Shown here one piece after another: positions 33,606-36,849 of a DNA stretch of 49,530 bases. A program made the translations under genes and the position numbers. Source of the DNA: Endomicrobiia bacterium (GTDB lineage: Bacteria; Elusimicrobiota; Endomicrobiia; DTEH01); NCBI GenBank assembly GCA_025060535.1, contig JANXCA010000005.1, positions 1-49,530 of the forward strand, read 5' to 3'. The notes beneath the pieces were generated by a model that saw only the letters and a program-made list of their open reading frames with translations, did not search any database and had not been told where the DNA came from. Positions within the stretch are counted from its first letter, which is position 1. Each line of letters opens with the position of its first letter.

Positions 33606-33634
33606 TTGAATTTTAATTTAATATATTGTTTAAT
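33606..33634 (+). promoter_or_regulatory. Candidate promoter of the cold-shock gene
   Basis: TTGAAT (33606-33611), 17-nt spacer, TTTAAT (33629-33634). The predicted start near 33641 falls just before the leader hairpin at 33649-33689, leaving a leader of about 78 nt. Confidence 0.45.
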
Positions 33635-33648
33635 TTAGTTGTTATTTA

Positions 33649-33689
33649 AGCAGTGTAGGTTAAGTTGTTTATCTTAATCTGATGCTGCT
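33649..33689 (+). promoter_or_regulatory. Stem-loop in the cold-shock mRNA leader
   Basis: AGCAG (33649-33653) pairs with CTGCT (33685-33689). Inside, AGGTTAAG (33657-33664) pairs with CTTAATCT (33673-33680) with one G-U pair and an 8-nt loop; an internal loop of 3 and 4 nt separates the stems. It ends 14 nt before the AGGAGG ribosome site (33703-33708). Cold-shock mRNAs in other bacteria are controlled by temperature-sensitive leader folding, so a thermosensor is plausible here. Confidence 0.5.
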
Positions 33690-33718
33690 ACAATTTTTTA
33701 TAAGGAGGTTAAAAAGAA

Positions 33719-33925
33719 GTGGTAAGAGGTAAGGTGAAGTGGTTTAACGAAAGGAAAGGTTTTGGGTTTATAAGTTGTGATGATGGTTCTGGTGATGTGT
33801 TTGTGCATTATTCTGGGTTACAACAAAGAGGTTTCAAGACTCTTAAGGAAGGTGAAGAAGTGGAATTTGAAATTACCACAACAAATAAAGGACCCAAAGC
33901 AATAAATGTTAGAAAGATTAGATAA
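33719..33925 (+). CDS. Cold-shock domain protein (CspA family)
   Basis: 68 residues from a GTG start with AGGAGG (33703-33708) ten bases upstream. A single OB-fold cold-shock domain: [15 protein letters not shown] contains RNP1 (KGFGFI, 13-18), and DVFVHY (26-31) is RNP2. It binds single-stranded RNA/DNA and melts structure, acting as an RNA chaperone in transcription antitermination and translation. It is monocistronic, with its own structured leader and a strongly structured 3' region, unlike the dense operons around it. G/C-containing codons look more frequent than in neighbours, consistent with high expression. Confidence 0.95.
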
Positions 33926-33934
33926 TCAAACAAA

Positions 33935-34099
33935 AACTTTGTGCAGTTAACTTTTAAAAAAGAAAATTAGTTTGGTTACATTTGTAACCAAACTTTAAAG
34001 TATATTTTTAGCACAAAGTTGTAAGAAATAAGAGTTTACTAATTGTTAGTTAGTAAAAACTCTTATTTAGTGTAATATATAACTAACCTAATTTCTTAC
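33935..34099 (+). other. Densely folded intergenic element between csp and secA
   Basis: Two adjacent stem-within-stem units. Unit 1: 33935-33944 pairs with 34011-34020 (10 bp, perfect) and encloses a perfect 11-bp hairpin, 33969-33979 with 33984-33994, loop ATTT. Unit 2 starts at the next base: 34021-34029 pairs with 34091-34099 (9 bp, perfect) and encloses a hairpin of 11 + 5 bp (34027-34037/34057-34067, two-base bulge, 34038-34042/34050-34054). The two outer helices abut exactly at 34020/34021. The second hairpin loop (GTTAG within 34045-34049) can pair with CTAAC at 34083-34087, a possible pseudoknot (8 bp if 34045-34052/34080-34087). No open frame of interest lies inside. A structured RNA, csp 3' end or small palindromic mobile repeat are all possible. 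Confidence 0.6.
33969..34009 (+). terminator. Possible terminator of the cold-shock transcript
   Basis: The 11-bp perfect hairpin 33969-33994 starts 44 nt after the csp stop. The following TTAAAGTATATTTTT is T-rich but not a clean U-run, so termination is likely but not certain. It is also the inner helix of the larger element at 33935-34099. Confidence 0.4.
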
Positions 34100-34108
34100 C
34101 TTTAATTC

Positions 34109-34137
34109 TTGCATTTTTTTTGTTTATTTTATATTTT
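34109..34137 (+). promoter_or_regulatory. Candidate promoter of secA
   Basis: TTGCAT (34109-34114), 17 nt, TATTTT (34132-34137). The start would lie about 40 nt before the secA ATG, after the structured element. An AGGAGA ribosome site is at 34172-34177. AT-richness makes this a modest call. Confidence 0.38.
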
Positions 34138-34182
34138 AAAAAATAATCTTTATATTTTATTGTTTTATTTTAGGAGAAAGAA

Positions 34183-36849
34183 ATGTTAAAGTATATTTTA
34201 TCTAAAATTTTTGGTTCACAAAATGAAAGATATTTGAAATCTTTAAAGCCAATAATAGATAAAATCAACTCTTATGAAAGAGAATTAGAACAACTTTCAG
34301 ATGAAGACTTAAGAAAGAAGACTTTTGAATTTAAACAGAGACTTAAAGATGGAGAAACTCTTGATGATATTTTACCCGAAGCATTTGCAGTAGTAAGGGA
34401 AGCTTCTAAACGTACTATAAAACTGCGTCATTTTGATGTTCAACTTATAGGAGGAATAGTTCTTCATCAAGGTAAAATAGCTGAGATGAAAACTGGAGAA
34501 GGTAAAACATTAGTTGCAACATTAGCTGCTTATCTTAATGCTTTAGAAGGTAAAGGAGTCCATATAGTTACAGTAAATGATTATCTTGCAAAAAGAGACA
34601 GATATTGGATGGGACCTATTTATGAATTTTTGGGTTGTAGTGTTGGTTATATTGAGCATGATATGCCACCGGAAGTTAGAAGGCAGATGTATGCTTGCGA
34701 CATAACTTATGTTACTAATAATGAGGTAGGATTTGATTATTTAAGAGATAATATGGTTTTAAGAAAAGAAGATAAAGTTTTAAGAGGACTTCACTATGCT
34801 ATAGTTGATGAGGTTGATTCGATATTGATAGATGAAGCAAGAACACCGCTTATTATTTCAGGACCTGCAGAAGAATCTACAGAAAAGTATTATATAGCAA
34901 ACAAAATTGTACCAAGATTAAACATAAAAATTATTCTTGAAGAGGAAGAGATAGAAGCAAAATATAAAGGGATAAATATATACAAAGGTTATGATGCTAT
35001 AGTAGATGAAAAAAATCATACAGTAGTTTTAACTGATGAGGGAATTAAAAAATGTGAAAAGTTATTAAATATATCTAACATATATGATGATTTAACATCT
35101 GATTGGGTTCATATAATTACTCAAGCAATAAGGGCTCACAAATTATTTCATAGAGATGTTCATTATGTAGTAAAAGATGGAGAAATAGTTATCGTAGATG
35201 AATTCACAGGACGACTTATGCCCGGAAGAAGATGGTCTGATGGTTTGCATCAAGCAATTGAAGCAAAAGAAAACTTACCAATAAGAGAAGAAAATCAGAC
35301 GTTAGCGACTATTACATTTCAAAATTTTTTTAGAATGTATAAGAAATTAGCCGGTATGACTGGTACTGCTTTGACGTCTGCTGATGAATTTTGGGGTGTA
35401 TATAAATTAGATGTTGTAGTAATTCCAACTCATAAACCTATGATAAGAATTGATCATCCAGATGTTGTTTATAGGACAGAAAAAGAGAAATGGAAGGCAA
35501 TAGTTGATGATATAGAAAGGCATTATAGAAAACAACAACCAGTTCTTGTGGGTACTCGTTCTATAGAAAAAAATGAATTTCTTTCTTCTCTTTTAAGAAG
35601 AAGAGGCATACCTCATCAGGTATTAAATGCCAAACATCACGAAAGAGAAGCACAGATAATTGCCCAAGCAGGAAAATTAAAAGCAGTCACTGTAGCAACT
35701 AATATGGCAGGAAGAGGTGTAGATATAATTCTTGGGGGAAAGCCTGACATAGAAAATGCGCCTCATCTTATTTGTAATGATCCTAATTGTAAAGTTGAAT
35801 TTTTACATAACAATGAATATCATGAAGTAGTTAAATTAGGTGGTCTTTATGTTTTAGGGACAGAAAGACATGAAGCAAGAAGAATTGATGATCAGTTAAG
35901 GGGTAGAAGTGGAAGACAAGGTGATCCCGGAGAGTCAAGATTTTATGTTTCATTAGAAGATGAACTTATGAGATTATTTGGCGGAATTAAAATGTCTGAG
36001 ATTATGCTTAAATTAGGAATGAAGGAAGGAGAAAGTATCCAACATCCTTGGATTACTAAATCAATAGAAAAAGCTCAAAAAAGAGTAGAGAGTATGAATT
36101 ATGAGATAAGAAAACAATTGTTAGAATACGATGATGTTATGAATAAACAAAGAGAAGCTGTATATTCTTTAAGAGATGCGATATTAGAAGGTAAGGATTT
36201 AGAGGAAAGAATACTAAATATGTTAGAAGAATCTGTTGAAGATAAAATAGAAAGTTTTTGTTCTGCCAAATACCCTGAAGAATGGAACTGGGCAGCTATT
36301 AATTTATGGTTAACAAGAGTTTTTGGTATTTCACTACAATTAGGAGAAGATCAAATCAAAAAATACACAAAAGAAAAACTTAAACAAGAAATACTTTCCT
36401 TAGTAAAAGAAAAATATAACCAAAGGAAAGAAGAACTCACAGATGAAGTTTTTTTTGAATTACAAAGGATAGTGTTTTTAAATATGTTGGATGTGGCCTG
36501 GAGAGAAAATCTTTATGAGTTGGACCATTTAAAAAGAAGTGTTGGTTTAAGGGCATATGGTCAGAGAGATCCGATAGTTGAATATAAAAAAGAAAGTTAC
36601 ATTTTGTTTACTAATATGCAAACAAGGATAAGAGAACAGACAATAGAGTATATCTTTAAGTTGCAACCAGTGATTACATCAAAGCTTACTCAAAAAAATA
36701 TGAAATCTTCTAAAGTTGTTAATTTTGAAAGTAAAAGTAATGACAAAAATTTGACAAAAAAAGTTAAAATTGAAAAAATAGGAAGAAACGATCCTTGCCC
36801 ATGTGGTAGTGGTAAGAAATATAAGAAATGCTGTGGTAAAAGTGTATAA
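34183..36849 (+). CDS. secA: Preprotein translocase ATPase SecA
   Basis: 888 residues, full length. SecA drives unfolded preproteins through SecYEG with ATP; here it would export the many signal-peptide proteins of the window. It has Walker A MKTGEGKT, Walker B/DEAD-type DEVDSILIDEARTPLI, VTVNDYLAKRD, MTGTALTSADEFWGVY, NMAGRGVDI and the GRSGRQGDPGESRFYVSLEDELM helicase motif. The C-terminus carries the SEC-C zinc-binding tail (IGRNDPCPCGSGKKYKKCCG), which contacts SecB and phospholipid. It starts the last operon-like run in the window; lnt follows after 8 nt. Confidence 0.97.
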   Translation: MLKYILSKIFGSQNERYLKSLKPIIDKINSYERELEQLSDEDLRKKTFEFKQRLKDGETLDDILPEAFAVVREASKRTIKLRHFDVQLIGGIVLHQGKIAEMKTGEGKTLVATLAAYLNALEGKGVHIVTVNDYLAKRDRYWMGPIYEFLGCSVGYIEHDMPPEVRRQMYACDITYVTNNEVGFDYLRDNMVLRKEDKVLRGLHYAIVDEVDSILIDEARTPLIISGPAEESTEKYYIANKIVPRLNIKIILEEEEIEAKYKGINIYKGYDAIVDEKNHTVVLTDEGIKKCEKLLNISNIYDDLTSDWVHIITQAIRAHKLFHRDVHYVVKDGEIVIVDEFTGRLMPGRRWSDGLHQAIEAKENLPIREENQTLATITFQNFFRMYKKLAGMTGTALTSADEFWGVYKLDVVVIPTHKPMIRIDHPDVVYRTEKEKWKAIVDDIERHYRKQQPVLVGTRSIEKNEFLSSLLRRRGIPHQVLNAKHHEREAQIIAQAGKLKAVTVATNMAGRGVDIILGGKPDIENAPHLICNDPNCKVEFLHNNEYHEVVKLGGLYVLGTERHEARRIDDQLRGRSGRQGDPGESRFYVSLEDELMRLFGGIKMSEIMLKLGMKEGESIQHPWITKSIEKAQKRVESMNYEIRKQLLEYDDVMNKQREAVYSLRDAILEGKDLEERILNMLEESVEDKIESFCSAKYPEEWNWAAINLWLTRVFGISLQLGEDQIKKYTKEKLKQEILSLVKEKYNQRKEELTDEVFFELQRIVFLNMLDVAWRENLYELDHLKRSVGLRAYGQRDPIVEYKKESYILFTNMQTRIREQTIEYIFKLQPVITSKLTQKNMKSSKVVNFESKSNDKNLTKKVKIEKIGRNDPCPCGSGKKYKKCCGKSV

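Follow-up and report, generated by a model that had tools for sequence, protein, structure and literature searches.

What is known of csp message control comes mostly from 5′ UTR thermosensors in model bacteria. The present locus raises the question of what a dense cluster of inverted repeats is doing directly downstream of a cold-shock gene. The window, by which we mean the whole stretch of 49,530 nucleotides analysed here, forms contig 191 of a draft genome (1.9 Mb; completeness 88%) from an uncultured member of the Endomicrobiia (phylum Elusimicrobiota). The element lies between csp and secA, starts about 10 nt past the csp stop codon, and is surrounded by long ORFs carried on the + strand. 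An earlier note, made from the sequence of the window, had described it as five sets of inverted repeats packed into 165 nt and arranged as two abutting stem-within-stem units, and had proposed a structured regulatory RNA, a small RNA derived from the csp 3′ UTR or a palindromic mobile repeat. Our analysis confirms the observation and partly supports its interpretation. The features concerned are given below; conservation was compared across three genomes of the genus, namely that of the window and two relatives, G001 and G002.

33606 to 33634, + strand: candidate csp promoter, TTGAAT, 17 nt, TTTAAT; read from the sequence, weak
33649 to 33689, + strand: csp 5′ UTR hairpin; folds in all three members of the genus
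33702 to 33708, + strand: Shine–Dalgarno sequence of csp, AAGGAGG; from the sequence
33719 to 33925, + strand: csp, encoding a 68-aa cold-shock protein; ORF, Pfam PF00313 (CSD), E 3.6e-30
33935 to 33944, + strand: P1a, 5′ arm of the unit 1 outer helix, AACTTTGTGC; first 9 nt the same in all three species
33945 to 33968, + strand: L1, single-stranded, with GAAAA common to all three species (alignment A4)
33969 to 33994, + strand: P1b, inner hairpin of unit 1; perfect 12-bp stem, 33969–33980/33983–33994
34011 to 34020, + strand: P1a, 3′ arm of the unit 1 outer helix, GCACAAAGTT; perfect 10-bp pairing with 33935–33944
34021 to 34029, + strand: 5′ arm of the unit 2 outer helix; perfect here, species-specific, with no counterpart in G001 or G002
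34026 to 34068, + strand: P2, second hairpin; 12-bp stem, 34026–34037/34057–34068 (alignment A7)
34035–34042/34050–34057: fifth helix, 8 bp, overlapping bases of the fourth (P2); by reading
34043 to 34049, + strand: P2 loop, UUGUUAG (UAGUUAG in both relatives); from folds and alignment
34091 to 34099, + strand: 3′ arm of the species-specific unit 2 outer helix; perfect over 9 bp with 34021–34029
34183 to 36849, + strand: secA, the 3′ neighbour, outside the element; ORF and Pfam search

The packing of inverted repeats into 165 nt is as described, with perfect helices of 10, 12, 9 and 12 bp and the 8-bp fifth, and the outer helices of the two units do meet between 34020 and 34021. The + strand folds at −47.3 kcal/mol with a z score of −5.3 and the − strand with a z score of −4.8, none of 200 shuffles being equally stable in either case. 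When the 257-nt intergenic region (33926–34182) was shuffled 1000 times with dinucleotide composition preserved, one shuffle nested a perfect helix of 11 bp or longer inside another of 10 bp or longer, and one contained two or more perfect 12-bp helices. The observed number of helices of at least 9 bp was reached or exceeded in 47 of the 1000 shuffles, so the sheer count is less special than the size and nesting of the helices. The stems had also been said to be richer in G+C than their surroundings; this holds locally (27.9% in the stems, 22.4% in the 165 nt and 19.5% in the intergenic region) but not against the whole window, which averages 28.2%.

In a 449,530-base sample of the same genome, for which gene calling was crude, perfect helices of 9 bp or more in a nested arrangement occur in three of 71 intergenic regions, and by best fold z the csp–secA region ranks third, below the tmRNA gene and a cobalamin-riboswitch-like leader. 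This company indicates that the region is structured like known RNA. Two other folded regions of this genome may be mentioned in their own right. On the minus strand of contig 55 (L290, 2744–3051), a strongly folded leader (z −6.5) matches the cobalamin riboswitch below threshold (19.4 bits against a gathering score of 31.5; E 0.0089) and is possibly a divergent member of that class. Nested hairpins immediately 5′ of a Shine–Dalgarno sequence (L279, 12078–12161) are perhaps a 5′ UTR control element.

A search of the genome for dispersed copies, which the earlier note had suggested as a check, gave a single real match for a 206-nt query. The weak DNA matches L004, L005, L006, L008 and L010 were rejected as AT-rich chance similarity, the structure being absent on folding. 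The pattern of the unit 1 outer helix, which matches both strands owing to its own palindrome, had a single occurrence in every one of the three genus members and none in 27 other genomes of the class. Two covariance models were searched, their matches to their own training sequences being so by construction. R1, which models unit 1 by its outer helix only, since the inner hairpin defied alignment by sequence, recovered the csp sites of the three genus members among 95 genomes with E values of 1e-14 to 4e-11; its next-best match, at 0.0093, comes from the reverse strand at the G002 copy. R2, a model of P2 searched in five genomes of the family, gave three csp matches at 5e-7 or better and no other significant copies, the next match (0.024) lying off the csp contig. 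No Rfam family matched the element at its gathering score.

The element thus found once per genome lies directly 3′ of csp in all three members of the genus. The order csp, element, secA is kept in G002. In G001, and in that relative only, a gene of 1019 codons with GGDEF and HD domains (L073, 333–3392) separates the element from secA, which argues that the element belongs to csp. When the GTDB genome collection was scanned for the outer-helix pattern, at least 117 stretches matched, about the number expected by chance according to our own arithmetic. At least eight rows of the scan for AACTTTGTG...CACAAAGTT (L086, L100, L110, L126, L132, L138, L150 and L161) come from one uncultured Christensenella draft, CASFQL01, which suggests an unrelated dispersed palindromic repeat in that genome; Lutibacter drafts also recur among the matches listed.

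Comparison within the genus indicates which parts of the structure are kept. Nine of the ten P1a pairs are identical in all three species, and the tenth is C–G here and U–A in both relatives. P1b is present at the matching place in both relatives with another stem sequence and its pairing kept; in a structure-anchored hand alignment, six of seven basal pairs show both-sided changes. For P2, aligned by sequence (A7), 97.1% of cells are paired and six of 12 pairs have changed on both sides, a level reached by two of 500 shuffles; slid versions of the structure yield 0–1. This excess over the controls, in three sequences, suggests that the pairing of P2 is under selection; covariation support is modest because the sequences number only three. 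The MAFFT alignments A1–A3, A5 and A6 misplaced arms, so R1 was built from A4, and both the counts and R2 rest on A7. P1b and the 5′ UTR hairpin were counted by hand, a bulged base of G001 being omitted once in the upper part of P2 and once in the 5′ UTR hairpin. No hand alignment enters into the tool count of P2 on A7.

Not all of the structure seen in the window is shared. Both by reading and by folding, the outer helix of unit 2 (34021–34029/34091–34099) has no counterpart in G001 or G002, so that the picture of two abutting nested units is correct for the window but, in its second unit, particular to this species. As far as the three sequences tell, P2 is the only conserved portion of unit 2. 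A loop complementary to a downstream segment had likewise been reported, and GTTAG and CTAAC are indeed present in the window species; CTAAC is absent from the G002 region searched and occurs in G001 only within the P2 stem arm and far downstream. A pseudoknot between loop and downstream segment was accordingly rejected as a conserved feature, this complementarity not being kept in either relative. An arm complementarity with the csp coding sequence, seen by eye, was dropped as not constant in the relatives.

The z scores do not separate the strands, ranging from −4.6 to −5.7 on the + strand of the three species and amounting to −6.55, −4.83 and −4.38 on the − strand. Fold stability is greater on the + strand in all three (−45.8 against −44.4, −49.5 against −40.2 and −41.6 against −35.3), and G–U pairs are more numerous there in two of the three (2 against 2, 7 against 2 and 4 against 1). 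Stronger folds and more G–U pairs on the + strand are as expected of an RNA made from that strand. The covarying stems, the near-invariant outer helix and loop and the linkage to csp in three of three genomes bear out the proposal of a structured RNA attached to csp, and the csp 3′ UTR of this one genus contains a real RNA structure that is probably under selection.

The csp messages of all three species also seem to begin with a 5′ hairpin. The hairpin at 33649–33689 sits between the candidate promoter and the Shine–Dalgarno sequence in each of them and has both-sided changes in four of eight upper pairs. The promoter call in the window is weak because it scores under the promoter-scanner rule; the corresponding site is TTGACA...TATAAT-like in G001 and TTGAAA-17-TACTAA in G002. 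By reading, many other csp leaders of the class carry hairpins before the Shine–Dalgarno sequence.

How these messages end may set the genus apart. Searches of 95 genomes of the class gave 92 csp matches, with one csp copy found in each genus member, and the 3′ regions of 70 of them were examined. A hairpin followed by a U-run lies downstream of csp in 58 of the 70 and in none of the three genus members. The 12 without such a terminator comprise these three; G003, which has a strong hairpin with a poor U-run; L218, L221, L223, L233 and L258, whose hairpins are visible on reading and fail the terminator rule; and L263–L265, which fail it too. G004, of the same family, passes the rule. In G003 and G004, both members of the family, the csp 3′ stretch before the terminator is no more stably folded than its shuffles (z −0.58 and −1.0), and unit 1 is therefore seen in this genus only. 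Across the genome sample, a terminator-like hairpin was found at 11 of 65 gene ends by a lenient rule, some of these being parts of tRNAs; with so few strong terminators in the genus, the lack of one at csp may be nothing unusual. A canonical intrinsic terminator was rejected for the element, the U-run after the hairpin being missing in all three species, and the terminator scanner found none on the + strand there. Rho is encoded above cut-off in all five family genomes. Hfq was detected in none of the five; in the control search, five of 14 control genomes, E. coli among them, were positive, four over cut-off.

The most likely role of the element is that of a tail protecting or regulating the csp message. 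More specifically, we give about an even chance to its being a structured csp 3′ UTR in two domains, transcribed from the + strand and acting as a barrier to 3′–5′ decay, with Rho ending transcription. In this genus the usual csp terminator hairpin would have been replaced by AU-rich hairpins; RNA polymerase would continue into the AT-rich spacer and either be released by Rho or read on into the next gene; and 3′–5′ exonucleases would trim the transcript back until halted at the hairpins. The outcome would be a stable csp mRNA that also starts with a 5′ hairpin. Both parts of such a scheme have precedents: Rho-dependent ends are trimmed to stabilizing hairpins without U-tracts, according to PMC13289151, and the malE 3′ structure resists 3′–5′ exonucleases, according to PMC5927463. 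The element shares with malE a 3′ position and a strong fold. Several observations count against the scheme. The C excess to be expected close to a Rho site is slight in the 100 nt downstream (C/G of 9/5, 12/10 and 8/7), the fold z scores hardly differ between the strands, strong terminators are few in the genus in any case, and simple protection from decay would not call for near-invariance of the outer helix or of the loop. A barrier alone leaves the helix and loop unexplained; they point to a binding partner, and contact with a protein, for which Csp itself is a candidate, or with a second RNA might make the stability of the message adjustable.

If a partner is involved, the element could serve autoregulation, Csp binding L1 or the UAGUUAG loop, or melting the AU-rich stems, such that decay of the message or read-through into the downstream gene changes with temperature or Csp level. 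We regard this as possible, though doubtful. The loop and the outer helix are near-invariant beyond the needs of pairing, and the element is closely linked to csp, of which each of the three genomes gave a single copy. E. coli CspD is reported to bind transcripts of both the terminated and the read-through kind, to stabilize them and to attenuate termination (PMC9765468), and Csps may act as transcription antiterminators (PMC4551563). Against this, R2 found no further significant copies in the five genomes, so that no regulon is seen, and the different downstream gene in G001 means that a dedicated csp–secA read-through switch is not conserved. A related proposal, which we put forward tentatively and consider rather unlikely, is a novel csp-linked RNA whose outer helix and UAGUUAG loop form a recognition site, through which Csp or a partner RNA would set decay or read-through from the 3′ end, paired with the conserved 5′ UTR hairpin. 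The conserved loop would also suit an sRNA some 165 nt long that is released by cleavage from the csp 3′ UTR and acts on other mRNAs, perhaps via UAGUUAG, as would the compact, strongly folded shape and the start about 10 nt past the stop codon. It seems improbable, given a 3′ end that is not U-rich and the missing Rfam family; the failure to detect Hfq lowers only the Hfq-dependent version.

Two adjoining hairpins might stop RNA polymerase unaided as an unusual intrinsic terminator, as they lie 150 nt or less from the stop codon, in the place of the relatives' terminator; moreover, most RNA-seq-supported terminator units in 13 genomes are hairpin clusters according to PMC8355165, which counts hairpins permissively. 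The stems are AU-rich, none of the three species has a U-run 15 nt or less from P2 and a terminator has no use for a near-invariant loop, and we judge this quite improbable. The earlier remark that an ordinary terminator can do without outer helices is apt for unit 1; the outer helix of unit 2 is missing in the relatives. A palindromic mobile repeat (MITE, REP or integron attC-like) would account for nested inverted repeats that fold as a single strand; a single copy per genome at the orthologous place, diverged vertically, excludes a dispersed REP or MITE within these three genomes, and the flanks of the element do not match the attC core, leaving this reading barely credible.

The decay-blocking 3′ UTR is the preferred account. 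Were the element only a decay barrier, it would be ordinary. As a selected 3′ UTR element in uncultured Elusimicrobiota, with Rho present and Hfq undetected, it offers a small, testable case of 3′-end control outside model organisms; a limited literature search found no report on csp 3′ UTR elements in Elusimicrobiota.

Among known systems, intercistronic decay barriers of the malE–malF type, and with them the stem-loop of the puf operon, offer a likeness in their strong hairpins without a U-run, 3′ of a gene whose product should be abundant and before a gene in the same direction. The element differs from them in its near-invariant outer helix and loop and its single occurrence per genome, and its protective role is a predicted one. 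REP-type barriers are repetitive, a property absent here. The cspA thermoregulator of Rfam (RF01766) is likewise a structured RNA on a cold-shock mRNA, but this thermosensor lies at the opposite end of the message, whereas the element is 3′ and matches the model with 12.2 bits against a gathering score of 78. Trimmed ends of Rho-dependent transcripts share the hairpin without a U-run after a gene and the presence of Rho; the hairpins described in PMC13289151 are GC-rich, whereas those of the element are AU-rich and nested and its 3′ end is predicted. Clustered-hairpin intrinsic terminators also have two adjoining hairpins near the stop codon, but the element lacks the U-run and shows extra sequence conservation when set beside those in PMC8355165. 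The element, with its conserved loop and helix, belongs to a known general kind, of which it is a modest new example.
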